Of a DNA stretch of 64,000 nucleotides, positions 428 to 55,600 are shown in pieces (position 1 is the first letter of the stretch; every line of letters starts with the position of its first letter). This DNA is from Branchiostoma floridae (taxonomy: Eukaryota; Chordata; Leptocardii; Amphioxiformes; Branchiostomatidae). The stretch covers positions 1,453,410 through 1,517,409 of the forward strand of contig NC_049985.1 in NCBI RefSeq assembly GCF_000003815.2, given 5' to 3'. The notes under the pieces are model-generated. The model saw only the letters and a program-made list of their open reading frames with translations, did not search any database and was not told the origin of the DNA. The translations under genes were made by a program, and so were the position numbers.

Positions 428-603
428 CTAATACTAATAAAACTGTGAAAGAATTCACCACAACCTTCCTCAACTTTCCAGCATTTATGGACGAACGAGG
501 AGCTGATTACCCTTAAAATCACATAATTTGCAAATCATAGAAAATGTGTTTTTCGTTTTCCCATTCTTAAAAAAATCAAAAGAAGTCATCCAAGAGTACG
601 TAC

Positions 604-3600
604 CGAGTAGATGACGTACCCAGGGTCCGCCGTGGCCAGGATGTCCGTCATGCGGGGATGGTTGGCGTAGTGGAATCTGGTCGGGAAGTCCTCCTTGTAG
701 TAAACCGTCATGTTGGTGTGGCTGCCGGCCAGCGCGGCGTACACCTCCTCCCTTCAAGTCAAATCAAATCTCCGTCAATTTAACATCAAATCTTTTCCCA
801 GTCTTTGAAGCTTAAAAAAGGCAATCTACCATTTCTTGGCAAGTTAACGTTATAACGTTATAATTAATAGTTTCACTGTTTTAAATCTGTATCATAAGAG
901 AAGATTATTTATGTTTCCTTTAGTCTTGTAATCTGTATGTCCGTAAGTTTATCATTTGGTGTTTGTTCGAACCATTGATGGTTAATCCAAATAGGGCTAA
1001 AGGGCATCTTGATGAATCTTACTGCTACTGTCAGTCAGTCTATGCAATGTATGACATGTGACTAATCAGCCGCCACGCCACGTCGAGAGTTCGAGGCTTT
1101 TTTATTTTCCTTCCGCGAGAGAAAGTAGTCCGTTCTATGACTACGGCAGTCAACACCCCCTACAGGAAAGCTTATCGCAGGAGTACATAGCCTTTTATCT
1201 TACTAATTTCAAGTTATTTACAATATTTAGGACTCATTTGTTATGTCTACGGATTTTTGAACCGATAGTGTATCGTTTTCCCGTCAAAAATGCGGCCCGA
1301 AATCTCGTGATTTTCGTGTAATTTCCCCTCATATTTTTTACCTGTTGTAGATTTCAAACCAACAGGAATTTGGGACCACCAGAAAGAGCAAACATTGTAG
1401 TTTCTGTCGGTATAAGACTCATCATAGATTTTGAGGGCGTAATGCAAATGCCGCCAATCCGCGCGAAGCCATGTCATAATTTTGACTCTAGAATAGAACG
1501 CCCCAGATTTGGCTTTTCCAGTAATCATCGACTCTGGACAGGTCTTCGTCCCATAGATATCAAATCTTGACCGGAACCAAGCTAACAGTGGTCCCCCGTA
1601 TATAAATTCCAACTTTCAAGTTGATATGCCAATCCGAGATGATATAAATCTAACTTCAAAAGTTATAACTGACTGCCGTAGCGAACCGCGCGCCGTTTTG
1701 GGACAGTTCTACGTTCCATGACCCCCGGGTGTTGGGACCACTTGCAAGAAAGCTTGCTGCTTGAGGTTACAACTATCTATATTCATCATTTCATCGCATA
1801 TACAACTTTAAAGCTTCTCACTTCACTCCTTTGGATTTTTAGCAGATTTGTCTAGCTGTATCCATTTGATTTTATAACCTGAAATCAGTTGATTTTAGTG
1901 CAATTTCCAACGCTTTTTTTTACCTCGTGACAGATTTGAAAACAAACGGAAAATTTAGTGCACAGAATAGTCCGAATTCTATTCTTTCAGTAGGTATATG
2001 GCATGCTATCCATTTCGCGGTAGTAATGGGCTTTTTTCCCAATCGCGCGAGGGCACCTCATCAAAGGCATTCAAAAAAGAACGCTTCCTCCCTTGCGTCA
2101 ACGCCCGTTCTACGGAGCCCGCGCCAGACACGCACCGCCGTATTTGCGTCCTAATTGTCGTAAGACCAATTTAGCATTTGCTAATTCAGTCCGTCTCAAC
2201 ACTGTTTTATTCTATGTGCGTCTTCTGACAATACCGGAAATGTCCATCGGTACCGCAACTTGTGTTAAAAAGCCAGCTGTACTCGAATTAGCTACACCAA
2301 CAACTTGCAGTATTTGCGAGTAAAACAGTAAATAAGCTTACACATGGACCTTCAAACCTTTCCAAATTTCAAACCAACAGGATCTTCACATGACTTGTAG
2401 TCGAAGATTCGACAAATCTAATTCACTAGTCATTAAAGATAGAATCAAGGGCGTAATGCAAATGCCCTCAATGTGAAATTCGTCGAAATTTTTGCCCCGT
2501 AGGGCACCGCCATTTTGATAATTTTACTATGTAACAAATATGACCATGAAACTAACTTTAATTGCCGTAAAATCCCACAAAAACGGTTTATACAGAGAGC
2601 ACATGGTGTTCCCTTCTTGTTATAACGTAATCTTTGTAAAATGTCCGCCAAGTAGGTTTAAAAGAGCTGTTAAAGTCGGGTGAAATTTCATCCAACTGTC
2701 ACGCGACAAGCCTTTCCTTAGCAACGACGTTGCTAAGAACCGCGGAACACTTCGAACTGCAAATAAAAACGGTTCGATTCACTACGTGGCTTGGCGGCTG
2801 TAATGAACAATCCGCCCCCTATTCGATCATGGTTCTATTTCGAACACCTCCGCCAAAAATAGCCATTTCTGTCCCACTGGAGCAGTTTTTGGCGGAGGTG
2901 TTCGAAATAGAATATGGCGTTCTATCTGTTCGATATGGCGTTCGAGAGGATCGGTCCATTAAACCAACCTGCGGCCCGGGGCGGGCTGGATCAGGGCCAG
3001 CGGGCCGTAGTCCGCGATCAGCATCTGCAGAGACGAGGCGTTCACGTAGCGCAGGATCTCGATCGGGGCGGGGACGGCGTAGACTTGCTGCATACCGTGA
3101 TCGGCCACGAGGATTATGTTCAGGTCCGTCAGTCCTAGTTGTTTTACCTGTAACACATACAAACTATTGAGACCAAAAAAAAAAGATAAAGTTAAGGTTG
3201 CCCGTGCATCTGTAACTGATACGCAGGGTTGGCGCTCATCTCCATTTCTGTAGCCCTTGTGCCACACATTTGTGCAAGCCACTACGGAAGGGCGCTAGTC
3301 CACTGGTAGTGATGTGTCTTTAACTCCCATACTCTTCCTCTTTAGTGATGAGTGCAAAGCAGAGAAAGCAGCATGTACCAAGTCTTTGGTAACGTTATGA
3401 CTCGCGACCTATCGAATGCAAGGTGAGCACTATACTCACTAGGCCATTTTACTGGTCTAAAATAATAAATAAAAACTAATGGCACGTTAAATACGTTCAT
3501 ATTTATATATGGAATAGTTTGTCTAATAGGCGTTCAATTTCACGGCGGACAGTAAATTGTATATAAATCAGTTAATCTCGTTAGATGTAGAATGTACATT

Positions 3601-5084
3601 TGTAAATACCAACTGGAAAGATTATGTAGTTTGTTTTAAATGTCCATACGTTTTATGTATTTTGAACATTTTTTAGCTACCTGCAAATTTTGTATGTTAG
3701 TTAATGGCCTTAATAAAGTATTCAAGTACCTGTTCGAGTAAGTAGCCGATGACACCGTCTATTTCCTTCAACACACTTCGGGCGGCAGGGGATTCGGGCC
3801 CGTAGATATGTGACACGGCGTCCAGCTTGGCGATGTAAAAGGTCGTGAAGTCGACGTCATCGTCCGTAAACCAACCCAGCACGGTGTCCACTCCTTCCAA
3901 GAACCCGCCGTACGTTTCGTTCAGAGTAGACAGAGGTTGGTAGTAGTAGATGTCCGGCAGGATGCCCGGGATGGGAGTGAGCATGTAGGTTCCTGTGCGC
4001 TTCCCCTGTCGGCTGGCCGTGACGACAAGCGGTTCGACGCCGGGATCCAGAATCTGGGTAGAATTATCCACCTCTTCTGGAAGGAGGAATTGCCCGGTGG
4101 AATGGTCGAAGAATACGTTATGCAGAACTCCGTGAGTTTCCGGGTGACAGCCTGGAGAAACACACGTAGGACTCATTGATGACGTCATGCAATTGGGGTG
4201 CTGGTACAGTAGACACACGCTAATTGCATTGCAGTTAATGGCATAAGTCGGGTATTTGCATAGAATAAGCCCTTTCACAGATATGAGAACGTATCTCTGG
4301 CGACAGGACGTCTAGGTAATATGTCAAAGATAAAGACCCCGAAAAAATAAACAAAATCCCTGTCGCCGTATACGCGTTCTAATCTCTGTGAAAGGGCTTA
4401 TTTTTAAAAGCTAAACCATTTCCAATTCACTCCATTATACAGGCTTTTCATTTGACGTCATCTACGCCATGTTGGATTACAGCGTACGTCTGTAAAACAC
4501 ACGAGTAAGCTACTGCTTAATTCAATTACCCGCCAACATGGTCGTCTGAGGATTCAAATTATAATTAGTATGACGTCAATGAAAAGCCTGTATAAAACCT
4601 GATAATGGCATAAAAAGATGTCAGAGAACAAAGCATACTGACCTGGAAATACATGATAACATCACAGAAAAGGTTCACCAATTAATCATCACTTGTCACG
4701 AATGACCTCAATGAAAAGCCGCCTGCAGGCCGATCTGAGCTTTCATGAATAAACAAAGGTTCAAACAAACAAACAAACACAACCACAGCAGTGTTCGTGA
4801 ATTTCAATGCTATTTCAAAACTAGAACTCACCTGTCAAAATGGTGAAGATATTGGGCACTGTTAGCGTGACGTAGGCAGGTGTAACGTACGGCACGTTCA
4901 CCCCCTGTGCTGAGAAGGCGGCCAGGTGCGGCAAGTCCTCCAGCCGGTCCATGTCCCAGCGGAAACCGTCTAGAAGGACCAGCAGGAGCTTCCCGTCGCT
5001 GCTCTCCGGCTCGGGAACGGCCGATAACATAGAGATCATCAGGAACAGCGGAGGGAAGACTGCTGCTAGACGGGACGACCCCAT
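604..5084 (-). CDS. ENPP6/7-like ectonucleotide pyrophosphatase/phosphodiesterase, left copy (3' end off window)
   Basis: Exons on the minus strand: 5084-4832, 4151-3730, 3147-2969 and 751-604, with phases 1, 0, 2 and 0. The last exon must lie left of base 1. ATG at 5084 is chosen because it is followed by a hydrophobic signal peptide (GSSRLAAVFPPLFLMISM). Visible family motifs are the metal Asp in LLDGFRWD, the nucleophile Thr in LTVPN, TILTG then HPETHGV, DAVSHIYGPES and VADHGM, which match the two-zinc alkaline phosphatase-fold core of ENPPs. The exon at 751-604 has FHYANHPRM, which recalls ENPP6/7 (choline phospholipid or sphingomyelin phosphodiesterases). Substrate cannot be read from sequence. 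It is the paralogue of the gene at 7575-10032, in opposite orientation, and differs by an extra intron (3148-3729) and transposon-swollen introns. A MITE terminus starts about 20 bp upstream of the ATG. Confidence 0.85.
1067..2800. mobile_element. Non-autonomous TIR DNA transposon in ENPP intron
   Basis: The ends are inverted repeats: CAGCCGCCACGCCACG at 1067 and its near-complement ending GGCGGCTG at 2800 (about 18 of 21 bases match). Both sides are flanked by TAAT, a candidate target duplication. The intron bases outside it (about 752-1060) resemble the short 319-bp intron of the right ENPP gene at 8864-9182, while 1067-2800 has no counterpart there, which supports insertion after the duplication. 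Inside, a stretch near 1340-1460 resembles another near 2365-2480 (both have aaaccaacagga and gggcgtaatgcaaatgcc). No transposase reading frame is visible. Confidence 0.6.
2833..2912. repeat. Perfect 27-bp inverted repeat (hairpin) beside ENPP exon 3
   Basis: Arms 2833-2859 and 2886-2912 are perfect reverse complements around a 26-base spacer. It sits 57 bp downstream of the donor of the exon at 2969-3147, inside sequence absent from the right ENPP intron, so it is probably another small inverted-repeat insertion. Confidence 0.7.
3200..3455 (-). mobile_element. tRNA-derived SINE, copy 1
   Basis: Read on the minus strand it starts with a tRNA-like head (box A-like TGGCCTAGTGAG, then CCTTGCATTCGATAGGTCGCGAGT) and continues with a body (ACATGCTGCTTTCTCTGCTT, ACTACCAGTGGACTAG) shared with the element at 15951-16225. 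The two copies align along their full length on opposite strands. This copy lies inside the intron at 3148-3729 that is missing from the right ENPP gene. Confidence 0.75.
4268..4398. mobile_element. 131-bp MITE, TIR AGCCCTTTCACAG, TA-flanked (ENPP intron 1)
   Basis: The ends are AGCCCTTTCACAGA and its complement TCTGTGAAAGGGCT, each flanked by TA, as expected for a Tc1/mariner-type target. The interior carries the family's hallmark TCTAGGTAATATGTCAAAG. It is the same family as the cluster at 5105-6270. Confidence 0.75.
4435..4595. mobile_element. 161-bp MITE of a second family (ENPP intron 1)
   Basis: Inverted ends TTATACAGGCTTTTCATT at 4435 and AATGAAAAGCCTGTATAA ending 4595, each next to an inner TGACGTCA-like octamer. 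No open reading frame. The remaining intron up to 4831 shows only short AACA repeats. Confidence 0.7.
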
Positions 5085-5263
5085 GTTGACAAGTGCTTGC
5101 AATAAGCCCTCTCACAGAGGTCAGAACGCATGTGCGGCGACAGGAATTCTAGGTAATATGTCAAAGGGTAAGGCACACAAAAAGTAAACAACACCCGTCT
5201 GGACATTGTTAGGCAAATCGAACAATGGTCAAGACAAGGACTGTTTACTTTTTGTGTGCCTTA

Positions 5264-5504
5264 CGACTATCAGTTTCTTACTGTTCCTAAAAATTCCAAG
5301 CCAAACGACTATCAATTTCTTACCGTTCCCGAAAGTCCCAAGCCAGACGACTATCAAGCTCTTAAATTTCCTGAAAATTAAAAACCAATTGACTATCAGG
5401 CTATCCAATTTCATGAAAATTCAAAGCCAAACGACTATCAATGTCTTACAGTTCCTGAACGTTCCAGAACAAACAATCAGTTCCCTAAAATTTTCTGAAA
5501 AACT
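5264..5504 (+). pseudogene. Captured 3' fragment of the LRR-Ig receptor tail
   Basis: Read on the plus strand it encodes about two DYQxL repeat units, the same in-frame TAA as the parent gene, then further units past the stop. It differs from the parent by only a handful of substitutions and small indels. It has no start, signal peptide, LRR or Ig part. It ends at an assembly gap, so the downstream border is unknown. Confidence 0.8.
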
Positions 5505-5604
5505 NNNNNNNNNNNNNNNNNNNNNNNNNNNNNNNNNNNNNNNNNNNNNNNNNNNNNNNNNNNNNNNNNNNNNNNNNNNNNNNNNNNNNNNNNNNNNNNN
5601 NNNN
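5505..5604. other. Assembly gap (100 N)
   Basis: Run of exactly 100 N, so the true size is unknown. It falls in the 42-bp repeat copy, suggesting the repeats stopped assembly. Confidence 1.
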
Positions 5605-5741
5605 ATCCATGCATCGACCATGGATTTAATATGCATCACAAGGTACGACGTGTTTGGTTCTTTTTCGGTGACTTATAGCATTTGACACATTACCTAGAAT
5701 TCCTGTCGCCGCACTTGCGCCCTAACTGATGTGAGAAGGCT

Positions 5742-6270
5742 TATAAGCACCGTAGTCACCGTAAAAGAACAAAATCTGTCGGACATTGTTATGCAAATTG
5801 TAACAATGGTAAAGACAATGATTGTTTTCTTTTTCGAGGCCTTTATCTTTGACATATTACCTAGACTTAATTTTTATTTCCGTCGCCGCATTGTAAGCCC
5901 TTTAACTAGAGATCAGAATGTATGTGCGGCAACAGGAATTCTAGGTAATATGTCAGAGGTAATAACTGCTTAACCGTAAAAGGAAGCGAAACCCTTCGGA
6001 CATTGGTATGGAAATCATAACAATGGTAAAGACAATGACTGTTTTCTTTTTCGAGGCCTTTATCTTTGACATATTACCTAGACTTTCCGTCGCCGCATTA
6101 TAAGCCCTTTAACTAGAGATCAGAACGCATGTGCGGCGACAGGAATTCTAGGTAATATGTCAAATGTAATAAGTCACCGTAAAAGAACAAAATACGTCGT
6201 ACATTGTTATGCAAATTAAATCAATGGTCGATGCAAGGACAGAATTCCCGTCGCCCGCACACGCGTAGTG
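5742..6270. mobile_element. Tandem cluster of related MITE units
   Basis: Two to three further units of the 5105-5741 family follow head-to-tail. Each carries TTTGACATATTACCTAGA, TCCGTCGCCGCATT, TAAGCCCTTTAACTAGAGATC and TAGGTAATATGTCA, plus a shared interior (GACATTGTTATGCAAATT, AATGGTAAAGACAATGA). No reading frame is expected. Arrays of this kind can arise by repeated insertion at the element's own TA ends or by unequal exchange. Confidence 0.65.
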
Positions 6271-7574: not shown

Positions 7575-7834
7575 ATGGCAACACCTCGTTTTGCTGCGCT
7601 TTGCCTCCCGTTGTTTTATATCACTATTCTGACGACCTCCGCCACGGAAGAAAGCGGTAAGCTCCTGGTGGTCTTTCTGGACGGATTCCGCTGGGACCTG
7701 GACCGGCTGGAAGACTTGCCGCACCTGGCCGCCTTCTCAGCACAGGGAGTGAACGTGCCGTACGTCACACCTGCTTACGTCACGTTGACAATGCCCAATC
7801 TCTTCACCATTTTGACAGGTGAGTTCTAGATTTA

Positions 7835-7873
<39 letters not shown>

Positions 7874-7965
7874 CTGTCTGTGTGTGTGTGTGTTTCTGTA
7901 TATGTGTGTGTATGTCTTAGTGTGTGCGTGTCTGTGTGTGTTTCTTTGTGCGTGTGTCTATGTGC

Positions 7966-8012
<47 letters not shown>

Positions 8013-8033
8013 CGCTTGTGTGTGTGTGTGTTT

Positions 8034-8076
<43 letters not shown>

Positions 8077-8096
8077 TGTGTGTGTGTGCGTGCGTT

Positions 8097-8147
<51 letters not shown>

Positions 8148-10032
8148 GTGTGTGTGTGTGACATCCCTAGTGCTGCCATATCTGGTAAATAGAGTGACCA
8201 TTACGGATTGCCCTTTTCATTTGCCTCCAAATATGACTAAAATTACAATCTTACTTACGTCCCCCCAGGACTCTACCCAGAAAGCCACGGTGTGCTGCAC
8301 AACTTACATTTCAACCGGTCCTCAGTGCAGGGCTCTTTTCTAGAAGATGCCGCAAAGTTAGCGGAGGCTGTCAGTCCCGGGGTGGTCCCGATCTGGGTGA
8401 CGGCCAGTCAACAGGGTCGGCGCACAGGGGTGTACAATGCAGATCCCGCCCCTGGCATGCTACCTGACGTCTACGTGCCTTTGATCAGTATCAACGAGAC
8501 ATACCATGAGATCGTTGCTGGCATGGACGCTGCGCTGGACTGGTTTTCGACGGGGAATGTTGACTTAACTGCTTTCTACATCGGCTTGCTGGATACAGTC
8601 TCGCACACACACGGACCCGAGTCCCCTGCCGCTCGAAAAGCACTTCAACAAATAGACACTGCTATCGGCTACCTGCTCCAACAGGTAAAACAACGAGGAC
8701 TGACGGACCTGAACATAATCCTCATGGCCGATCACGGTATGCGGCAAGTCTACGCCGTCCCCGAACCGATCGAGATCCTGCGCCACGTGAACGCTTCGTC
8801 TCTGCAGATGCTGATCGCAGACTTCGGGCCGCTGGCCCTGATCCAGCCCGCCCCGGGCCGGAGGTTGGTTTGTTTGTTTATCAAGTCCAATGACATACTC
8901 TGCATAGATTGACTGACAGTAACAGTAATATTTATTAAGATACCCTTTCGCCCTATTTGTACTAACCTTTAATGGTTCGAACAAATAGCCAATGCTGAAC
9001 TTACGGACATACAGATTACAAGATTAAAGGAAACGTACATAATCCTCTAATTTGATTAAGATAACAGTGAAACTATTAACTTGCGAAGAAACCGTAGATT
9101 GCCTTTTTTTAAGCATCAAAGGCTGGGAAAAGATTTGATGTTACATTGACAGAAATTTGATTTGATTTAATTTGATTTTGAGGGAGGAGGTGTACGCCGC
9201 GCTGGCCGGCAGCCACCCCAACATGACGGTTTACTACAAGGAGGACTTCCCGACCAGATTCCACTACGCCAACCATCCCCGCATGACGGACATCCTGGCC
9301 ATGGCGGACCCTGGATACGTCATCTACTCGGTACGTACTCTTGGATGACTTCTTCTGAATTTTTTTTCAAGTATGGGAAGACGAAAAAGACATTTTCTAT
9401 GATTTACAAATTCAGTGATATTAATGGTAATCAGCTCTTCCATAAATGCTGGAAAGTTGAGGAAGGTTGTGGTGAATTCTTTTAACAGTCATATTAGTAC
9501 TTTCGGACATTCTATGGGCCGTGTCTTTTGGGTGGTTGGTACTTATTGGGGCAGAGAGTACATGGTGTAGGTTAGGACCTCCTAGTGGCTTCTTTTAAGG
9601 CTACAGGGGCTGATTTTGCTTAAGCCTTTGAAAATGATCCAAGAAGGAGATGAGAATTGTTATGGTTTTTAACATTTCAAATAAACAACCCGTTTATATT
9701 GTTCACCCTGTACACAGCGCTACCCAGGAACGTACCGGGTTTACTCACATCGCGGAGACCACGGGTACGATAATCGCGACCCGGCCATGCGGGCACTGTT
9801 CCGGGCGTGGGGGCCGAACTTCCGGCGGGGCTACGCGCGACCCGACCCGTTCGACTCCGTCCACATCTACCCTCTCATGTGCGCGGTCCTCGGGGTGGAA
9901 CCTGCGCCGAATAACGGCTCCCTGGAGGTGGTCAAAGACATGCTAGTCGGAGTGAGTAGCGACGCTTTACAGAACATAGCTAAGGTCTACATCTTGCTCA
10001 TTGCTATGGTCTCCGTAACGATGCTCATCTGA
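7575..10032 (+). CDS. ENPP6/7-like ectonucleotide pyrophosphatase/phosphodiesterase, right copy (complete)
   Basis: Exons 7575-7818, 8269-8863, 9183-9330 and 9718-10032 join in frame to 433 residues, close to the usual 440-460 of ENPP6/7. Signal peptide 1-25. Metal and catalytic residues are all visible: D36 (FLDGFRWD), nucleophile T72 (LTMPN), D190 and H194 (DTVSHTHGPES), D236 and H237 (MADHGM) and H344 (GDHGYDN). The C-terminus ends in a hydrophobic stretch (VYILLIAMVSVTMLI) with no cytoplasmic tail, which suggests a GPI-anchor signal or membrane anchor, so the enzyme should act outside the cell. By family it hydrolyses phosphodiester or choline-phospholipid bonds; the substrate is not readable. 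Exon 2 equals exons 2+3 of the left copy with no intron between. The terminal exon end is tandemly repeated after the stop. Confidence 0.88.
7838..8160. repeat. (TG)n microsatellite in ENPP intron 1
   Basis: About 320 bp of TG dinucleotides with scattered interruptions, filling most of the first intron of the right ENPP gene. Open frames across it are artefacts. The left copy's intron 1 has no equivalent. Confidence 0.98.
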
Positions 10033-11567: not shown

Positions 11568-11840
11568 TCACGTTGCTATGGAAACGGAAGATGCCATTTG
11601 GGTGGTGGGGGGTCCATTTTGGGTGCTCGGTTCAAGGATTTTGTTGTTGCTCTTTTTTGTATGCTTGAGATGCAGGAGATTTTTGGGAAATGTGAGTGCC
11701 TGATAGTTTTGTAGCTTGGAGTTTTCAGAAAATTTAGGGAACTGATTGTCTGTCTTGGAACGTTCAGGAACTGTAAGACATTGATAGTCGTTTGGCTTTG
11801 AATTTTCATGAAATTTGATAGCCTGATAGTCAATTGGTTT
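11568..11840 (-). other. In-frame coding-like extension past the receptor stop codon
   Basis: Beyond the TAA the same frame stays open for 90 codons to a TGA at 11568-11570. It contains three more tyrosine units (DYQAI, DYQCL, NYQAL) and one decayed unit, then a Lys/Ser/Thr-rich end. Neighbouring units read GAAAATTCAAAG where this one reads GAAAATTAAAAA, so the stop is a single C-to-A change in a serine codon. The copy in the MITE at 5264 has the same stop. This is either a shortened receptor or a readthrough tail. Confidence 0.7.
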
Positions 11841-14798
11841 TTAATTTTCAGGAAATTTAAGAGCCTGATAGTCGTCTGGCTTGGGACTTTCGGGAACGGT
11901 AAGAAATTGATAGTCGTTTGGCTTGGAATTTTTAGGAACAGTAAGAAACTGATAGTCGTTTGGCTTGGAAGTTTTGGGAAATTTAAGAGGCTGATAGTCG
12001 TCTGGCTTGGGACTTTCAGTAACTGCAAGAAATTGATAGTCGTTTGGCTTTGAACATTCAGGAAATTTAAGAGGCTGATAGTAGTCTGGCTTGGAACCTT
12101 CACGATCGGAAAGAAATTGATAGTCGTCTGGTTTCGAATGTTCAGGAAATTTGAGAGCCTGATAGTCGCCTGACTTAGGATTTTCAGGAAATTTAAGAGC
12201 TTGATAGTCGTTTGGCTTGGAATTTTCAGGAAATTTAAGAGCCTGATAGTCGTCTGGCTTGGAACCTTCACGATCGGAAATAAATTGATAGTCGTCTGGT
12301 TTCGAATGTTCATGAAATTTGAGAGCCTGATAGTCGCCTGACTTAGGATTTTCAGGAAATTTAAGAGCCTGATAGTCGTTTGGCTTGGGACTTTCAGGAA
12401 CAGTAAGAGATTGATAGTCGTTTGGCTTTGAATTTTTAGGAAATTTAAGAGGCTGGTAGTCGTCTGGCTTGGGACTTTCAGGATCGGAAAGAAATTGATA
12501 GTCGTTTGGTTTCGAATGTTCATTAAATTTGAGAGCCTGGTAGTCATCGGTTTTGTGCTCGGTGTCCGAAGGAAAGGTGACGTAGTCTATGTCTGCGGGG
12601 AGGGTGACGTAGTAATGGTCCGTCTTGAAATCGCCGGGAAAAGAACAGCATTCGTGTCCAGCAGCGTCGTTTTCGTCGCTCGCGTTGTCTGCCGATGCCT
12701 TTGTGATGTATGGGTTATTAGTTCTCCGTTTGTACGGGAAGCCAGGCTCGGATGTATCGTCGCCTCTAACTGTGATATAGCCTTCGGTGTCTTCTGTGCC
12801 AGCCTCTAATCCAGACGTGTCGTGACGATGCTTCTTCAGAACATGTTCTTTGGAATCGTGGCTGCTAGTGACCACATCATGGGTCTCTTGCGTGCGTTTC
12901 AAAAATTCCACTAACCGCCCTTCATTGTCGTAGTGCCCTACTCTACCGGGCACCGCAAACGCTACGCTGTCGCACAGTTCTTGCCTCCTAGACTTGCTTG
13001 CTCTTCCTTGATGACTTGGCCGTTTTTCATTGTCATACTCTCCCCCTCCGAGACCCTCTCCCCTTACCGTGACCCTGCACATTGAAGCTCTCAGTTCCTT
13101 CCGGGTTCTCGGCTTAGGAAGATTATCTGCTTCGACAGCATCGAATGTTTTCGGTGTTTTTCCAAGATCAGGTGTACATTCGCTACCACGCGTCTTATGA
13201 CGCCGACGCTTGTTACAGCTCCTCATGTCTTGATTTGAGAACTGGTCGTCAATTTCATAAGACACTTTCTCGGCACCGTCATTCTCATAAGGGTCTCGGA
13301 ACTGGTCGTCATTTTCGTAAGTTGCTCTCGCGCCATCTTCTTCATTCAAGGTTTCATCGTCATTTTCATATGGACGTGAGGAATGGTCAAGTCCATCAAT
13401 GTTACTGTCATCTCCTTGGTTCGAAACGTGTCGGACATCTTTGTCTTGACCTCTCCTACGGCGCGCGGGTTCCTCTTCGTTTCGCATTCTGATCTTTCTG
13501 ATGAGGGCGGCTAGAACCAAAACCACACCGACGCCAGATGCTGCTGCTATCCCTTCATAGAGGGCAACGTTACTTTTGAGATGCCCGGGCAAAGTTGTCG
13601 TCTCTGAGAACACGACCATGCTGCGAGGTGTTGTTTTGATGCTTTCCTGAGGCGTTGTCTTGTACTGGACTACATCGGGCAGCTGGATGTGCCCAAGATT
13701 TAGAATGGCTGATGCATTTGCACTTTTTGCATGGTTTCCTGTCACCATGCATGTGTAGGTACCATTTTGGGACGCTGTTAGGTTCAACACGGAGTAGCAG
13801 GTTGTTGTTTCCTCGAACACTCTCACATCGGACCCTATCCGCCTGCAGTGCAGCATTCTCTCGCTGGCGCGCTGTCTCGAGTATTCGGAGGTGGATGAGA
13901 GTTCGTTTCCGTTCGGAAGAAGCCATGAAAAGTGGAGCTTTTCCAGACAGTTCGCCTGGCAAGTGAGAAATCCTTTCCCCGGTATCCCCACAGCGTTCGT
14001 TCTCGTAACAGAGACCAATGGCGGTGGGCAGGTCAGTCTGTCCAACGGAAAACTACTGAGCCATTTACCCTTTCTATTCTCATCCGTACACATAACGTCC
14101 AAGCGCGACCGCCCCAGTCTCGTTATCCACTTCTTTATTTCTCGCAACCTGCAGTCACAAATTAACCGTCCTCCAAACATGTTCATGCCTTCGTTATGCT
14201 GGAATTTTACCAGGTCTCCCAGTGACAGTTGTTGTATGATATTATCCATAATAGTGAATTCTTGAAGGGACTTGAGGCGCCAAATGTCTGAAGGGATGCG
14301 TTGAAGGCAGTTAATGGAAAGGTCGAGGGTCTCTATTTTTTGTAGCTCAGAAAAGGTACCATTGTCGATCGATACTAAGTGGTTCAAAGCAAGATTCAGA
14401 TATTTGAGCTGACGAAGCCCTCGAAATGTTCCTACCTCGAGTTTCCGAATCTTGTTCATACTAAGATCGAGGTTTGTCAAATTAGGCACCGTATCGAAAC
14501 ACCCCACCTCTACTTCCACCACACTGCTGCTATGGATGGTTAGAACGCGGAGATTTGGGAGGCCGGGCAGCTTCCCTCTTCCGATGGTTTTGATGGTCTG
14601 AAACTTGATCACCAGGGACCGGAGCGCTTCGGGAAGCTCGGCGGGGATGTCGCTAAGGGCCCCGGACCGGGTGCAGGTGATCGCCGTGGGAGGATTGCCG
14701 AATCTCCGGCTGCAGCGGTCCAGGTCGGAACGCGAGGAGGAGCCCGCAAAACCAACAACGATAAGCAGCCCCAACAAAACAAGGCTAGGGATCGTCAT
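11841..14798 (-). CDS. Single-exon LRR-Ig transmembrane receptor with 17-unit DYQxL tail
   Basis: 985 residues from ATG 14798, chosen because the signal peptide (TIPSLVLLGLLIVVGF) starts there. Order: LRRNT cysteines C29-C42; about six leucine-rich repeats 55-200; LRRCT 205-257 (CDCRLREIKKW); one Ig domain ~265-367 (C280, NGTYTCMV C350); Thr/Pro stalk; membrane span ~412-433; cytoplasmic tail ~550 residues. The tail holds YEND at Y478, Y494 and Y504, YEID Y514, YDNE Y588 and Y623, YITV Y674, YVTL and YVTF near 730-740, then 17 units of 14 residues (core [DN]DYQ[AFPS]L) from Y753 to Y977. pYxN is the known GRB2-type SH2 site and YxxL an ITAM or endocytic type, so phosphotyrosine signalling is inferred. 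Amphioxus is known for expanded LRR-Ig families; ligand and name are unknown. Stop TAA at 11841. Confidence 0.9.
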   Translation of the reverse strand: MTIPSLVLLGLLIVVGFAGSSSRSDLDRCSRRFGNPPTAITCTRSGALSDIPAELPEALRSLVIKFQTIKTIGRGKLPGLPNLRVLTIHSSSVVEVEVGCFDTVPNLTNLDLSMNKIRKLEVGTFRGLRQLKYLNLALNHLVSIDNGTFSELQKIETLDLSINCLQRIPSDIWRLKSLQEFTIMDNIIQQLSLGDLVKFQHNEGMNMFGGRLICDCRLREIKKWITRLGRSRLDVMCTDENRKGKWLSSFPLDRLTCPPPLVSVTRTNAVGIPGKGFLTCQANCLEKLHFSWLLPNGNELSSTSEYSRQRASERMLHCRRIGSDVRVFEETTTCYSVLNLTASQNGTYTCMVTGNHAKSANASAILNLGHIQLPDVVQYKTTPQESIKTTPRSMVVFSETTTLPGHLKSNVALYEGIAAASGVGVVLVLAALIRKIRMRNEEEPARRRRGQDKDVRHVSNQGDDSNIDGLDHSSRPYENDDETLNEEDGARATYENDDQFRDPYENDGAEKVSYEIDDQFSNQDMRSCNKRRRHKTRGSECTPDLGKTPKTFDAVEADNLPKPRTRKELRASMCRVTVRGEGLGGGEYDNEKRPSHQGRASKSRRQELCDSVAFAVPGRVGHYDNEGRLVEFLKRTQETHDVVTSSHDSKEHVLKKHRHDTSGLEAGTEDTEGYITVRGDDTSEPGFPYKRRTNNPYITKASADNASDENDAAGHECCSFPGDFKTDHYYVTLPADIDYVTFPSDTEHKTDDYQALKFNEHSKPNDYQFLSDPESPKPDDYQPLKFPKNSKPNDYQSLTVPESPKPNDYQALKFPENPKSGDYQALKFHEHSKPDDYQFISDREGSKPDDYQALKFPENSKPNDYQALKFPENPKSGDYQALKFPEHSKPDDYQFLSDREGSKPDYYQPLKFPECSKPNDYQFLAVTESPKPDDYQPLKFPKTSKPNDYQFLTVPKNSKPNDYQFLTVPESPKPDDYQALKFPEN

Positions 14799-16629: not shown

Positions 16630-19600
16630 CTAAGACTGTTTTAAATGCTGAACGCTTGTCAAAGTCGTGAAGTAAAATTTGAGCCAAGACCCCATAACCC
16701 CCAGGGCGCAGTAGACTGATGTGAGCATGAGTGGGAGGAACGGCAGGCGGGTGGTGAGACCTAGGGCGTGATGGCCCAGGCTACAGTACAGCTGGAGTAA
16801 TACCAGCCCAATGATGTACGCAGTCTCCACAGGAGACAGGAGCGGCAGGCAGTACGGACGTCTCTTACTGGAGCTGTGAACAGAGAGGGTTCAAATAGTA
16901 ATACAGTCACGTTGAATTAAAAAAGACACTAAGGCCACACCTATTTCATTTGTTGCTTCTCGGAGTTGCTTGTCCATTTTTTTCATTTTCTTAAAAAAAC
17001 AAATTAAACCCCAAGAAATCACAAACCTGTAAATTTTACCATTCAGAGCCACATACGCATAATTTCTGTCCTTTAGTTACAATTGGTTGCATTTTACACC
17101 ATAATGGAACAAGCTTTGAATACTATGGTAGCTTTAAAATTTGGATTTCAGGCAAATCGATGAATTCCCAGCATCTTTAAAGGGCCAAAATGGTTTCTTA
17201 GCTTAGATGTCCTCTTCGATTGAAAAGTTTTTGTTATGACACAGATATTTAAACAGTAGTATGGTCACACAGACTCACCCATGCAGACTGCCCAGGGCCA
17301 TGAAGGCAAAGAGTGAGAACATCAGCATCAGGCACACTTTACTGGGGGTCTCTGGGGGGAATACAGTATCCAGAGTTTGATTAAATATGACTACTTGTTA
17401 CTTGACATTCACAAAAAGCTATTGCTACTTGACATTCGAAGTACATAAACTATTGTATCTTTCTATGCTAAATATATTTACATATATTTATTTATTTCAT
17501 TTCTTCCTCAAACGTACATAGGCAGGGAAATACACACATGATATACCCTGAATTGCGTAGGTTTGTTACAAAGAAACTTATACGTACAAAATATCAACAT
17601 ACAAAGATACATAATATATTAACAAACACTAAGCATAGATCCGAACTCACAGGCTGATGGTAATGCTAGGAAATAGAGTCATTATAAAGTCTGACTGCAG
17701 TGTGGAGGAACGACTGTTTCAGTCTGTCAGTTCTTGCCTTGGGGAGAGTGAACGCGTTCTTGTTCCTCAGTTGCCTGCCAGTAACTGTGCGTCTTTGAGG
17801 AGGCACAAGATCGTGCAGTGGATGCTCGGGTCTTAACATATCCTTAAAGAGCTTTACTGCAGCAGCTTCTCTCCTTTCCTTTAAGGAAGGTAAGTTGGGA
17901 ACTGATCGCCTACCCCCGAGAGAAAGGATACGGAGGGCCCGTTTCTGTACACGTTCCAAACTGTCCGATTGTTCTTTGCTGCAGCCTACCAGCAGAACGT
18001 GACCGTATTCAAGAACGCTACGAATAAGTGACGGGTAAATCTGAACCAGGTCTGCCACGCACATCTCCTGTTTAGTCAGTAGTCTGAGATAGTGCAGCCT
18101 GCTCGATGCTTTTGAAACGAGGGATTGTACATGGTCGTGCCATGACAGCTTGCAGTCGAAGATGAACCCAAGGCCCTTTGCGACCCTTGAGAATGGTACA
18201 GGTACACCGCCGAGAGAGAGTGGCGGTAAAAGTGGAATATTTCTGCTGAAGCAGATCAACAGAGACTGACTTTTTTTGCCCTTTAGCAGCATGTCATTAC
18301 ACTCCGCCCAGGAATCAAGCTGTAGCGCTTCCTCTCTCATACTGTTATCCACGCGATCCTTCCCCAGGGAGATAGACCTGGACAAACCCACGTCGTCCGC
18401 GTAGCCGACATCAAGAGTGTCGCTGTAGACTACGTCTCGAGTACTCATAAACAGGAGGAAAAGGTATGGTGACAGTACACCTCCCTGAGGTACCCCCGAA
18501 GTGAGTACTCTCCACTCGCTGACTTTACCGTTAGCAACCACTCTCTGGGTACGGCCCTGCAGATAGTTCTGTATCCAGGCTACCATGCGTGGATTGGTCA
18601 CGACGTCGTTCACTCGTTGAAGGAGAATTGAATGGTTCACTCTATCAAATGCCTTGCTCATGTCTGCGAACAAAGCAAGGACTGCTGCGTGACGTCTTGA
18701 GTCTAAGGCTGACAGCCACGTGTGTACCATCCTTATGGCCGCTAAGACAGTGGAAGAACCCTTCAGGTAAGCGTACTGATTTCTAATGGCAGGTGTAATA
18801 GAGGGCAGTAGTCTTTTCAGAATACTTTGGCCGCTACGGGTAAGAGGGACACGGGCCTCATCTCACTGGCGTTAGCTGCACCATTAGATTTTGGCACAGG
18901 GACAACATTTGCTGCCTTCCATATGCTAGGAACAACCCCCTCCTCATACGAAGCGTTAAACAGGTGGGTGATGACTGGCGCCAAGTCGTCAGCGTAATGC
19001 TTGAGAGTCCATGTTGGGAGATCATCAGGGCCGCTTGCCTTGTGAGGGTTTAAGCCCTTAAGAAGAGTCTTCACCTCACCAATCGAACACAAGTCAACGC
19101 ACGGAGTCGGACACTGCAGGGGGAACAGGTGCAAAGACGTTTCAGGACACCACGCTGAGGAAAAGTACTGATTTAGAACCTCGGCCACCTCGTGGTCTGA
19201 CACGTCCTCAATGGTGGTACTATTAGATCTCTCTTGTGCTCTGCCAAGTTCACGGTTAACAGCGCCCCACTACTTACGTGGGTCTTCCTGTTTGAGGGTT
19301 TGTATGAAGTTTCTGTAGTGCCAGTTCTTGGCATGCCTGATGCTGGTTTGAACGTTGTTTCTGAGAGATTTCCACCGAGCAGATTTGCCATGCCGCTTGA
19401 ACTCCTCAGCCCTTTTCCTGATAGCGCGTTTGACGCCCTCGGTCATCCACTTCTTGTCACAGGCTCTTGACGCCGACACTTTTACAGGAAGATGCTGATT
19501 CACCAAGGTCATGGTCAAACTGTAGAAGGTCTTGACTTTCTCTTCGACCAGGGCTGCTTCATAAACAGGAGACCAGTCCGTCATGGCGAGGGCCAGACCG

Positions 19601-22600
19601 AGGTTCAACTTCGTTACTGTAGTTGCCACTCTTCGCATGACCTTGACTGGTTTACTTCTGGTCGGATGTTCTACACAAGGTGGCAAAAGAACAGAGGAGT
19701 GGTCGCTGGAACCGATGGGTGGAAGGGTACGGGGTGTACAGTAGTATTGAGCTAGTAAGTTAGTTAGAATCAAGTCTAATGTAGCCGAGCCCCGCGTGGC
19801 CTGAGTCACCACTTGCTTGAGGTGAGGATGCACTGTGATAAGCTTCTGAATTGGTAGATTGTTGAAGTCGCCACCCAGCAACAGTCCGGCATGTGGTTGT
19901 TTACGATATAAACAGTCACAGGAGGTGATGAGATGTTCAACCATCTTAGTAGCCCCCTCTTTGTTATTGTTGCATGGAGGATGATACACTATACCCACAA
20001 AAAGAATCGGAAAAGTTCTCGGCAGCCACTTTGGACGAGCCTGTAGCCACATAACCTCCACTCCGTCTATCTCGAGGTCGTACAGTCTTTTGACAGGTAT
20101 GTTTTCGGCGATGTAAAGAGCCACACCCCCAGCTTTACCATATAACCTATCCTTTCTGAACAGCCTAAAACCATCGATGGCTAAAACGTCATCAGGGATT
20201 TCAGGTACAGTCCATGTCTCAGTGATACATGCCAGTTGTGCAGAATGATAGGCCAGAGTAGGCCTCTAATTCACATTTCTTATTAACAAGTGATCGTACA
20301 TTAGACAGGAACAGGCATGGAAGAGTCCTAGAGTTCTGTTGTGTTGACCTGCCATGAGTGGCGGGGACTGTTGTTATCTTACAAAGTACTCTATTGTTTA
20401 CGACACATCTGCGACTTACATAGTCATTTGCATATACATCAAGTCTATTTGTAACAAATGGTTTAATTCTACAATGTTTCTGTTTCCTAGTCAGCCCACC
20501 GCGGTTCCCTCTTGTTCTTACATTTGAAATGTTTGCATAACACATGATTCAGATCTAGAAGGGTGGTATCTGCTTAGAAAGATCGTCAAACAAATCAACT
20601 ACAAATCATCTACAGCTGCCGCTGATCCGGCGCTAAACTAATTACAATGATGATAAGATGGATCTTTGTTACGTTTAACTTAAGCAGTAGAAGTGGATGA
20701 CAACATGTCTTTCACCTCTTCTTAAGTCTTGACAATCATGTTAACATGCAATTTCTACAAATGTTTACTAAGAAATATTGTTACATGCAGTTGAACAGCA
20801 ACATTGCACTTTTTTTTGCAATGAAATTTTTCATTACAAAAAATGACTGGGATTTCTGACCTGCCTGAGTGAAGAGGAGTGGGAATAGCGACAGGTGTCC
20901 GCAGGTGCTGAGCAAGAGGAACACCTGGCCGTCCTGACGACTTTCTACAGCCAGCAAACTACAGGGGAGGAAACATAGCACAACATTCAGTACCAGTAAA
21001 CATAGCACAACATTCAGTACTAAACATTCAGTACAACTGGAACACCTGGCCGTCCTGACGACTTTCTACTACCAGCAAACTACAGGGGAGGAAACATAGC
21101 ACAACATTCAGTACCAGTAAACATAGCACAACATTCAGTACAACTGTAACACCTGGCCGTCCTGACGACTTTCTACTGCCAGCAAACTACAGGGGAGGAA
21201 ACATAGCACAACATTCAGTACCAGTAAACATAGCACAACATTCAGTACTAAACATTCAGTACAACTGGAACACCTGGCCGTCCTGACGACTTTCTACTGC
21301 CAGCAAACTACAGGGGAGGAAACATAGCACAACATTCAGTACCAGTAAACATAGCACAACATTCAGTACAACTGTAACACCTGGCCGTCCTGACGACTTT
21401 CTACTGCCAGCAAACTACAGGAGAGGAAACATAGCACAACATTCAGTACCAGTAAACATAGCACAACATTCAGTACTAAACATTCAGTACAACTGGAACA
21501 CCTGGCCGTCCTGACGACTTTCTACTGCCAGCAAACTACAGGGGAGGAAACATAGCACAACATTCAGTACCAGTAAACATAGCACAACATTCAGTAAAAA
21601 TGGAACACCTGGCCATCCTGACGACTTTCTACTGCCAGCAAACTACAGGGAAGAAACATAGTTATTCTATGGAAGCCCATGTGATAATAATAGAGCCCCA
21701 TGTATTACTGGCAAATGCAGCAACTTTCGTGGTAGTTTAAACTTTAAGTTTTAATGTTCGCGGTTTTCACGGTGGCCACTTCACCGCGATCTTAATAGCA
21801 CCACAAACATTTTTCCATGGCAGTAAGAGACTACAGTGCATGGTGCTACTGCGAACTTAAAACCAACATGAAAAGTCCCTTTTCGAATTCCAGCTACCGT
21901 GAAATTAAATCCCCGCAAACTTAAATGCATTTACAGTTACCCAAGTAATCACCCTATCCAAAACACCCGTATCAAACATTATCGGGGCACAGGGATGACA
22001 CAAAAGAATATACCTGAGAGGAATGATGATGAGAATGATAGCCTTCTCGTGCACATGGTACCCAAACACCTGTATCAAACGTTATCGGTACCCAGGTGTG
22101 ATTGGAAAGGATATACCTGAGAGGAATGATTATGAGAATGATGGCCTTCTCGTGCACGTGGTACCCAAACACCTGTATCAAACATTATCAGTACCCAGGT
22201 ATGACAGGTAAGGATCTACCTGAGAGGAATGATGATGAGGATGATAGCTTTTTCGTGCACGTGGTACCCAAACAGGAAGGAGGCGAAGGCACAGAGGACG
22301 AGGCAACGCAGGAAGTCCCTCGGCGTGCACGGTCGTCTCCACAGGTGCACCAGGGCGGGCTGGGAGGGACAGGGAAAATGGTGTCAGATCTATTCATTTA
22401 TTCATTCAGTTCTACCACTTCTAGCACGTTACCGGAACGTACTGCGAATGCGCAAACACTGTTTTTTTTTTTTCACGATGCATTGAAATCCTTGCTTGTT
22501 GCACAGTATATTTTAGAGACATGGTTTCATGTAAAACGTACACGGAGTTTTACCCTTATATAAGCACGCACTTTCTTAAATGCGGACCTTTAGTAAACCG

Positions 22601-52600: not shown

Positions 52601-55600
52601 CAACATTCACGTTACAAGAAAGGGTTGCTGTCTTTGGACAGGATGTTAAGCCACCATCCATTGTGCTTGGACACCAGCTAGCAGAATTTCCCTAGTACAA
52701 TGAACCTGTAAATACTGTACATAGCATCTGTCTTCTCTACCACGATCAGTGGAAGAGTAGCTCTTCAGTGAGCTAAACTGGATCGAGATCATTTTCTACC
52801 TTTTCACATATGCGTCCAGTACTGTAAATGCAGAAATATTTGCAGTAGTTTTATGTTTGCAGTTTTCACAAGGCAGTCTTACCGCGAACTTAAAACCACC
52901 GCAAACATTTTTCCATTACAGCATGTGACTGCAGTGCATGGCACTATCACAAACTTTAAACCACCGCACACACTCCACTTTCCCGCTGACGCGAAATTAA
53001 ATCCCAGCATTCATCATCATCCGGGCGTGCTGGTTGCACGGATGGACATTACTCTCCCCCTCCATCCTTCCCTATCCTCCATAGCCTTGGGCAGATCTTC
53101 AGCCGAGCAGCCAGAATCATCACAAATTTGATCCCAGCATTAACTAACAGCATTTACTGCATCCATAGACTCCTGTTCTGCAATTCTGCAAGTAGTTGAT
53201 AGGGGGCGCACTTATCACACCTGCTGTATCCCCAGGTACAAGGAGTCCTCCTTGAAGGAGCAGCAGGAGACGATGCAGCAGCTCAAGACGATCACCCAGG
53301 AGAAGGCTGTTGCTAGGCAACAGGTGAAGGAGCTGGAGAAGATGCTGAAGGAGAAGGAGGCGGAGTTCACCCGGGCTCGGGAGGAGTTCAGCAAGTAAGT
53401 CATCTCTTTCTCATTCATTCCTTCCCTCCATCAGTTCAGCAAGTAAGTCTTCTCTTTCCCATTCATTCCTTCCCTCCATCAGTTCAGCAAGTAAGTCGTC
53501 TCTTTCCCATTCATTCATTCCCTCCATCAGTTCAGCAGGTGGGTCGTCTCTTTCCCATTCATTGCTTCCCTCCATCAGTTCAGCAAGTGAGTCTTCTCTT
53601 TCCCATTCATTGCTTCCCTCTATCAGTTCAGCAAGTGGGTCTTCTCTTTCCCATTCATTCCTTCCCTCCATCAGTGCAGCAAGTGAGTCTTCTCTTTCCC
53701 ATTCATTCCTTCCCTCTATCAGTTCAGCAAGTAAGTCTTCTCTTTCCCATTCATTCCTTCCCTCCATCAGTTCAGCAAGTGAGTCTTCTCTTACCCATTC
53801 ATTCCTTCCCTCTATCAGTTCAGCAAGTAAGTCTTCTCTTTCCCACTCATTCCTTCCCTCTATCAGTTCAGCAAGTGAGTCGTCTCTTTCCCATTCATCC
53901 ATTCCCTTCATCAGTTCAGCAAGTAAGTCGTCTCTTTCCCATTCATTCCTTCCCTCCATCTGTTCAGCAAGTGAGTCTTCTCTTTCCCATTCATTGCTTC
54001 CCTCCATCTGTTCAGCAAGTGAGTCATCTCTTTCCCATTCATTCCTTCCCTCTATCAGTTCAGCAGGTGAGTCGTCTCTTTCCCATTCATTCCTTCCCTC
54101 TATCAGTTCAGCAAGTAAGTCTTCTCTTTCCCATTCATTCCTTCCCTCTATCAGTTCAGCAAGTGGGTCGTCTCTTTCCCATTCATTCATTCCCTCCATC
54201 AGTTCAGCAGGTGGGTCGTCTCTTTCCCATTCATTCCTTCCCTCTATCAGTTCAGCAAGTGGGTCATCTCAAGCACCTGCACTGTTTTTTTATGACCACT
54301 TCACTTGTCCAATTGTGCCGGGCATGTGAAAATGCTGATCACGCAAGCACATGTCAAACCCAAGATTTTTCCAGGAGGGAGATTTGATATACTTGTTACT
54401 TTTCACAGTCATGGCATCAAGCATTGGTCAACACAGAAAAATAGAGCCAATGATAAAAGGATTTCATTGCTGGAAGTGAAACTGAAAATGCAAAGAAAAA
54501 TGTCACTTACATTTTGAGCAGAAAATAAGCCTGTCAGAAATGAAACTACACCTTATGACATTGCCTTACTCATAGGAGTGGCTCTCTACCATAGTGTGAG
54601 AGGAAGTGAACACATGAAATGGGAATCAAAACCTTATTTCCATAGATAATAAAAGACAGAAATACAAGTAAATAAGACCAAAAAAAATATGTCATGGTGC
54701 CTTCAAACTCTTGCCTGTTTTGTTGCAGAAGGTTGATCGATGCTCACACAAGAACTGCCAATGTGGAGATGGAGTTACAGAGGTGAGGCTGTAACTGTAC
54801 TCCATTTCAAATTTATCTTCCTTTTGAAGAAAAGAACTTGAGGACATTTGGATCAGCATAACATTTCTTTTGTTATCTTTCTTGAATGAACCTGATTTTT
54901 TCTGTTTTTTCAATGTCCAAGGATAAAAGTAAAAACACCTAGATACTGCACAGTCTAGTGAGATTAGATGAAATTTAGGTACTGTACATGTTGTAAGTTG
55001 AAATACCAATGAAAACAGCAGCATAGAAACAATATTCTAAGTCATGATTTCTAGTATCCCAAGGAATTTGATCTTTGACTTCTGAATGTCATCCTTTCTC
55101 CTTGTAGACATAAGGAAGAGACCAGTGCTAAGATGTCCAACTTGCAAGAAGAATTGCAGAGGTACGTCAAAAGATAGCTTGGTGTCCCTTAGTAAGCTAT
55201 TATAATTACTGAGTCTCTTTCAGAGAGGACAAAATAAACTCTGTAGCTACAAGAGATTTTAATACTGGGCTTAATGTTCAAGATAAGTTTATTCTCTAGT
55301 ATCAGTTCATCATGCATATGGAATGAAATAAGATGGAATCATTTTGTAATTTATGACATCCATTGATATGCAAGACAATGTTTGAATCACAGTGAATGAA
55401 TAGTTTGGGTTTCTCTTCCAGGAAAGAAGAAGAACATCAGGAAGAAATGAGAGCTATTCAGGAGGAGGAAAGGTTGGTTTGTTTAGAGATAGATTTGAAC
55501 ACTTCACCACATATAGAGACCATAAGAGAACTTTGTTCGCATGTACCGGTAATTTTTGGTGGGAGGGGGTCGTCATCAGGTTGGTAGAATATAGGGGATA

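Follow-up and report, generated by a model that had tools for sequence, protein, structure and literature searches.

A seventeen-unit tyrosine array in the cytoplasmic tail of an amphioxus LRR-Ig receptor and its possible role in multivalent phosphotyrosine docking

The window examined here is a stretch of 64,000 nucleotides of the Branchiostoma floridae genome (NC_049985.1, positions 1,453,410 to 1,517,409), and its minus strand carries a gene for a leucine-rich repeat (LRR)-immunoglobulin (Ig) receptor with a long tandem array of tyrosine motifs in its cytoplasmic tail. As a preliminary description of the locus had stated, the segment 11841..14798 is a single open frame on the minus strand, translating to 985 residues and a TAA stop, and the host assembly matches the receptor at 100% (G000:C7:1465253-1468207). 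The protein begins with a hydrophobic signal peptide (residues 1-19, 14742..14798), followed by an LRR domain with N- and C-terminal cysteine caps (residues 29-257, 14028..14714), an Ig-like domain (residues about 259-368, 13695..14024), the limits of both domains being putative, and a transmembrane helix (residues 413-433, 13500..13562), after which comes RKIRMR; these features, like all those of the gene given below, lie on the minus strand. Kyte-Doolittle hydropathy peaks at 2.25 over residues 1-19 and at 2.14 over residues 415-433, with the next highest peak reaching only 1.06. In a Pfam scan, LRR_8 matched with E=1.1e-26 (best stretch, residues 81-141), while the Ig_3 match was weak (E=0.0039, 18.1 bits versus a gathering cut-off of 30). 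When the window protein was aligned with 22 paralogues, all 23 sequences matched LRR_8 and 12 of them also gave an Ig_3 match (E<=0.01, the lowest being 2.4e-9). Among the cap cysteines, C29, C216, C237, and C257 were invariant, as were C280, W292, and C350 of the Ig region, and C214 was nearly so. The best matches of known structure are extracellular LRR proteins of a generic kind (IGFALS, LRRTM, LRIG1, LRRC15, and TLRs), which inform on the fold and not on function. With LRR_8, Ig_3, a signal peptide, and a single transmembrane helix all found, the earlier assignment holds, and judged from its sequence the product is a type I LRR-Ig membrane receptor.

The cytoplasmic tail is 551 residues long and holds 30 of the 36 tyrosines of the protein. 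Ahead of the array, three classes of tyrosine motif follow one another. Class I is represented by YENDD, YENDD, YENDG, and YEIDD (residues 477-517, 13248..13370), the same module that forms YENDDQF arrays in paralogues; class II by YDNE at residues 588 (13026..13037) and 623 (12921..12932); and class III by the single motifs YITV, YITK, YVTL, and YVTF (residues 674-742, 12573..12779), which occupy the place in the tail that is taken by Y[VIM]T[LF]P repeats in paralogues. The three YEND (477, 494, and 504), the YEID (514), and the two YDNE motifs listed in the preliminary description were all located; its further "YxxV" motifs come down to YITV at residue 674, the remaining ones being YVTL, YVTF, and YITK. 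Five of these motifs, the three YEND and the two YDNE, conform to the YxNx pattern of GRB2-type sites, as had been proposed.

The array itself occupies residues 751-985 (11844..12548) and consists of seventeen 42-bp units, the last of which is cut by the stop codon. Its seventeen YQx[LI] motifs lie at residues 753-977, and the exact 14-residue spacing that had been reported was found in 16/16 intervals. Thirteen of the 17 units carry the reported consensus [DN]DYQxL in its strict form, and four depart from it, with G at position -2 in units 6 and 10, Y at -1 in unit 12, and I at +3 in unit 7. Tandem Repeats Finder called the array at periods of 42, 84, and 168 bp with scores of 453 to 865, so its regularity is not due to chance. 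Any two units are separated by 1 to 19 differences of 42, and units 5, 6, and 7 differ from units 9, 10, and 11, respectively, at one base of 42 each, so a multi-unit block was recently duplicated. About four decaying units follow downstream of the stop (11678..11840), of which unit 20 lacks its tyrosine and one codon. Since the last coding unit reads TAA at the codon where the other 16 have TCN or CCN, the array must formerly have been longer. It may derive from a YVTF motif; at the DNA level, a unit and the preceding segment agree at 20 of 42 positions at best, at any offset, and at 19 for the DYVTF segment.

The gap between adjacent motifs is 10 residues and had been regarded as over-extended for an immunoreceptor tyrosine-based activation motif (ITAM). 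This does not hold against the consensus given for FcgammaRIIA, YxxL/I(6-12)YxxL (PMC6433993), into which all 16 adjacent unit pairs fit in its relaxed form. All 17 units also conform to the sorting consensus YxxPhi, in which the tyrosine is followed by a bulky hydrophobic residue at +3, and all have Q at +1.

The assembly (513,431,437 bp in 431 contigs) was searched by tblastn with the window protein, and at least 61 places were found at E<=0.001 (46 of 1771 candidates scored). We analyzed 28 family loci, the window gene among them; a locus with the same modules (L044) and a partial one (L048) stand outside the counts. In the reading adopted, the tails of six of the 28 loci are short or broken (L009, L020, L024, L025, L027, and L028), and L021 contains an assembly gap, with the start of its tail miscalled. 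L025 and L026, both on C4, are close in tree and location; the tail of L025 seems to be frame-shifted and has no tyrosines, and that of L026 has ten. The tail reaches 150 residues or more in 22 loci, and each of these carries 3 to 16 YxN motifs, often arranged as YENDDQF arrays. Together, these 22 tails hold 210 YxN motifs versus a mean of 33 in 300 shuffles (maximum, 50) and 92 YxxPhi motifs versus a mean of 42 (maximum, 59), and the highest number on one chain is 16 YxN or 20 YxxPhi-type sites.

The order of class I, class II, and class III modules is common to the family. Class I motifs are mostly [HQ]YENDDQF-like, often spaced by 17 residues, and reach up to 15 copies; class II motifs (YDN[DE]) number 0 to 4 in the pairs counted; and class III motifs (Y[VIM]T[LF]P-like) number 0 to 9 outside the window gene, with at least two in 12 of the 21 other tails. 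In the window gene, class I and class II motifs are few, the class III part is lengthened by the DYQx[LI] array, and no other family member is as rich in YxxL. Outside the window gene, the 27 remaining loci include a single ITAM-spaced pair, in L007. A search for the DYQxL array in the assembly gave 23 matches at E<=10, four of which are the window locus and an inverted copy of part of the array within the window; the other 19 are weak (E no better than 2e-7, identity not above 32%), and none of the seven that we inspected is a DYQxL array, four (L035, L036, L039, and L040) being different tyrosine arrays and three (L032, L037, and L038) repeats of another nature. The gene is thus a member of a family and does not stand alone; the DYQxL array, as far as this search reached, is its own.

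Repeat copy number, to which a role in signaling had been ascribed, is the likely variable in the family: the number of class I motifs differs in six of the eight paralogue pairs compared. The counts are 5 versus 15 in L022/L023 (ectodomain identity, 80%), 8 versus 11 in L003/L012 (79%), 3 versus 9 in L005/L018 (75%), 8 versus 10 in L014/L019 (90%), 10 versus 11 in L013/L015 (95%), and 3 versus 4 in L001/L002 (47%); they are equal in L004/L006 (90%, 5 and 5) and L010/L018 (82%, 9 and 9). In the tree, L001 pairs with L002 (98/97); the two branches are long, and the join is possibly false.

Class I units were selected solely by what follows the tyrosine (from E at +1 through position +6), and columns +1 to +6 therefore provide no control. 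Tyrosine occupies the register in 166/184 units, and within 17 of 18 genes its codon switches between TAC and TAT, with the residue seldom altered. The ratio of nonsynonymous to synonymous differences per site (pN/pS) is 0.10 at the tyrosine codon versus 0.94, 0.80, and 0.85 in the three preceding codons; these values serve only as ratios, since a column pS above 1 arises where synonymous sites are very few. Relative to the preceding spacer, the pN/pS of the tyrosine is 0.118 (0.059-0.207 in a bootstrap over genes; 18 genes, each having five or more units), and its pN is the lower of the two in 16/18 genes. The class I array tyrosine is under strong purifying selection. When class III units were found by [IVMQL][TASK][LFI]P alone, tyrosine preceded this pattern in 61 of 72.

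Constraint on the DYQx[LI] array was assessed by parsimony on a neighbor-joining tree of the 17 units, which for tandem units is only approximate. In codons D2, Y3, Q4, and L6, the changes were 5 synonymous to 2 nonsynonymous versus 10.5 to 30.5 elsewhere (Fisher P=0.026), and three alternative definitions of the core gave P values of 0.008-0.012. Weighted by opportunity, the approximately 32 nonsynonymous changes in the array hit Y and Q not once (P=0.0045) and D, Y, Q, and L twice (P=0.0014). On its own, the constraint apparent in the array is suggestive.

Tyrosine arrays were also seen outside the family, in proteins that came from the weak array matches and the class I search and whose domains were judged by eye; of the extra class I places, four short ones were inspected. 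On C5, the Ig-transmembrane proteins L041 and L039 have tails of 10 to 11 NRVYDGEAVSSPEF repeats of 14 residues each, unlike the window array in sequence, with tyrosine in 8/10 and 10/11 units, respectively. The transmembrane proteins L036 (C15) and L040 (C4) repeat LPNTYWPWEIP..RRASLP at least 10 and at least 7 times, with tyrosine in 10/10 and 7/7 units and proline-rich QRPLPALP motifs ahead of the repeats. L045 (C7:21123900-21125100), an Ig-transmembrane receptor, contains roughly ten units of the INAYENDDEVAMSAD type together with two QPIYGNENE units; L046 (C10:3390000-3390800), where the motif is YENDEEH, is an open frame in which GHYENDEEHKYFQYDKNH-type units recur; and L047 (C5) has SYENDDES units. 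The YEN-type core thus recurs on quite different spacers, by convergence or by exchange.

The inverted copy of the receptor array lies in the window at 5263..5501 on the plus strand and comprises units 15 to 20, including the stop, with 97.5% identity over 239 bp; an assembly gap starts at 5505. Up to the stop, the copy differs from the array by one synonymous change, and beyond it by more differences and two 1-bp indels. It appears as a captured piece within an element, probably of the miniature inverted-repeat transposable element (MITE) type, at 5093-5750, with a left terminal inverted repeat at 5093..5230 (plus strand) and a right one at 5616..5750 (minus strand), about 135 to 138 bp each, and a 100-N gap inside. 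The MITE-like element is located between two head-to-head ENPP-like genes (type I phosphodiesterase/nucleotide pyrophosphatase), at about 600-5080 (minus) and 7575-10030 (plus) with limits set by eye and Pfam matches in two exons; the exon at 4817-4995 matches 7655-7833 at 92%. Elsewhere in the window, a 48-bp array of 18.5 copies (53385-54270) is open on the minus strand as 16-residue units like EGRNEWEREDSLAELM, with frames of more than 250 codons open on both strands, and a reverse transcriptase match with a weak endonuclease match (Pfam) at 17666-20124 (minus) is probably a non-LTR (long terminal repeat) retroelement remnant.

We consider it rather probable that the tail of the window receptor is a multivalent phosphotyrosine docking array whose copy number has been changed by tandem duplication. 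Starting from the observed architecture, the exact tandem array, the block duplication, the arrays throughout the family, and the selection on the class I tyrosine, we infer the steps beyond that selection as follows. The long tail, probably disordered, would display repeated tyrosines; upon clustering driven by ligand, a Src-family kinase would phosphorylate them; the YEND and YDNE sites would recruit a GRB2-type adaptor; and SH2 proteins, above all those with tandem SH2 domains, would bind to the 17 DYQx[LI] units, because YxxL/I-x10-YxxL/I is matched by each adjacent pair. The docking valence would rise or fall through tandem duplication, whether of single 42-bp units or of blocks of several, and repeat number, by setting valence, may set the signal strength of each receptor. 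More tentatively, and with doubts that outweigh our confidence, we suggest that cephalochordate LRR/Ig immune-type receptors encode signal strength as the number of tandem SH2-docking repeats, evolving by minisatellite gain and loss, and that the window gene is the extreme case, a polymeric ITAM of 16 overlapping pairs on one chain combined with a GRB2 module.

Several observations weigh against the docking proposal. The DYQxL array was found in the window gene and its inverted piece only (19 weak matches, seven of them inspected), and the nearest paralogue, L002 (45-47% ectodomain identity), is without it; class III-like relics in L002 (YITFPDTKN and DYVTFPNT) sit past its stop in other frames. 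L013 has three NLTHP units in which the class III tyrosine is lost. Stops truncate the arrays in L009, L002, and the window gene, where about four units have already been removed. In class I, codons +7 and +8 are also somewhat constrained (pN/pS of 0.50 and 0.35), which makes the preceding codons the laxest control. In the DYQx[LI] array, the tyrosine by itself, with none of about 32 nonsynonymous changes, does not reach significance (P=0.075), and the D,Y,Q,L core was chosen post hoc from four definitions tried (P of 0.008-0.026).

Docking need not mean activation, and as a sub-case that would fix the sign of the signal, the array could be inhibitory, resembling an immunoreceptor tyrosine-based inhibitory motif (ITIM) and recruiting SHIP1/SHP phosphatases. 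We regard this as possible, at a fairly low probability. Its basis is the receptor BbLcLRR of B. belcheri, in which the site DDY539ATV shares the DDYxx[V/L] context of the units and SHIP1 is recruited, with less SHP1/2 (PMC8211107). Adjoining GRB2-type sites could equally yield activation, and at position -2, where an ITIM has I, V, L, or S, the units have D, N, or G. A canonical ITIM reading of DYQxL is rejected on this ground, as 0/17 units have the required residue.

The main rival to docking takes the DYQx[LI] units as YxxPhi signals that bind, unphosphorylated, to the mu subunits of AP-2/AP-1, so that the array would mediate graded internalization, for example in the uptake of microbes, and the YxN part would signal. 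An argument for it, and one that counts against docking, is that the TGN38 peptide crystallized with AP-2 as its cargo is DYQRLN, with the same DYQxL core (PMC3655264). All 17 units, with Y, Q at +1, and L or I at +3, are YxxPhi-compatible, and so are the class III motifs YVTL and YITF of the paralogues. A single YxxPhi is normally sufficient for sorting, however, and the TGN38 signal is single-copy; mu2 prefers R at +2, which 0/17 units have. The array tyrosines also lie about 320 to 544 residues away from the membrane, and the more widespread YENDDQF and YDN[DE] motifs are not YxxPhi, since their Y+3 residue is usually D or E, so that sorting would cover only part of the tail. We consider this reading unlikely as the explanation of the array, but it is compatible with docking, because phosphorylation of a YxxPhi would release it from AP-2 and let it bind SH2, as in CTLA-4.

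It is improbable, in our judgment, that the array is a minisatellite evolving neutrally or nearly so in a tolerant disordered tail, with the tyrosine kept only because the copies are recent; for the youngest part of the array, this explanation may hold. The near identity of units 5-7 and 9-11 is in keeping with it, as are the finding of the DYQxL array in one gene only and the nonsignificant result for the tyrosine alone. Minor-base counts of 49, 31, and 33 by codon position indicate that overall constraint on the array is weak, and one stop was observed versus 2.1 expected (P=0.37), in a test without power. The D,Y,Q,L core shows fewer nonsynonymous changes than neutrality would give, however, and paralogues expand tyrosine motifs of their own, with the class I tyrosine clearly selected. 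That the unit number is an assembly effect, because the tandem array was collapsed or expanded or haplotypes were merged, is very improbable: the B. floridae assembly, in 19 chromosomal scaffolds, does derive from Sanger shotgun data, obtained from a single diploid animal whose divergent haplotypes were merged (PMC7269912), and the inverted copy ends just short of an assembly gap, but the array measures only about 0.7 kb, its units are distinguishable, and arrays are present in many unlinked paralogues, so that only the exact number is at risk.

We found no description of these tail arrays among the matches listed from the openly licensed literature, where six tail motif strings searched as text also gave no match; surveys of amphioxus immune genes could mention the genes. 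The nearest counterpart to the docking tail proposed here is BbLcLRR, which is likewise an LRR membrane receptor of amphioxus and has several tyrosines in its tail. Lck phosphorylates it at DDY539ATV, HDY655SEV, and HDY690DDP, a [DH]DYxx[V/P] context, and it associates with SHIP1 and less with SHP1/2 and is inhibitory in Jurkat cells (PMC8211107). It differs from the window gene in having a WSC domain, with no Ig in its reported domain list, and the available text of that report maps three tail sites and mentions no tandem array (PMC8211107). A Pfam scan of the whole window protein (E<=0.1) contained no WSC family, which argues against its being an orthologue of BbLcLRR.

FcgammaRIIA has an Ig ectodomain and is known to use Syk, the sites of LAT and EGFR are not known to be copies of a tandem repeat, and the ectodomains of BTLA and CD22 are Ig only. 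Like the window receptor, FcgammaRIIA has its ITAM in the ligand-binding chain and with wide spacing (YMTL-x12-YLTL), but it has one ITAM and no LRR, whereas the window gene has 16 overlapping ITAM-spaced pairs (PMC6433993). LAT and EGFR resemble it in their membrane-tethered tails with several tyrosine sites, which are disordered, bind Grb2 when phosphorylated, and condense with it on membranes; LAT has at least four such sites and EGFR nine, compared with 30 tyrosines in the window tail (PMC9181613). As in BTLA, whose YDND binds GRB2, and in CD22, GRB2-type sites are combined in one tail with a further type of motif, which in those two is of the ITIM/ITSM (immunoreceptor tyrosine-based switch motif) type (PMC11641238, PMC5302901). 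In the accessible accounts, BTLA and CD22 have one or few copies of each site and no arrays, and CD22 has six tail tyrosines (PMC5302901). Tandem phosphotyrosine segments are found in the EPIYA-C repeats of Helicobacter pylori CagA, where additional copies steeply increase SH2 binding; CagA is a bacterial effector and not a receptor, and its copies are mostly one to three, up to six (PMC4623810).

Multisite phosphotyrosine tails are thus known, and what appears new, judged by the literature matches listed, is a tandem DNA array of 17 near-identical units in a family that does likewise with other motif classes. The paralogues, and probably individuals, would provide a natural valence series in which adaptor clustering and signal strength could be compared with site number, which is of relevance to immunoreceptor signaling in early chordates. 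LAT, EGFR, CD22, and FcgammaRIIA make do with a few sites, whereas in this receptor family the putative docking motif has been copied as a DNA repeat, and in class I the preceding spacer codons drift and the tyrosine is kept.

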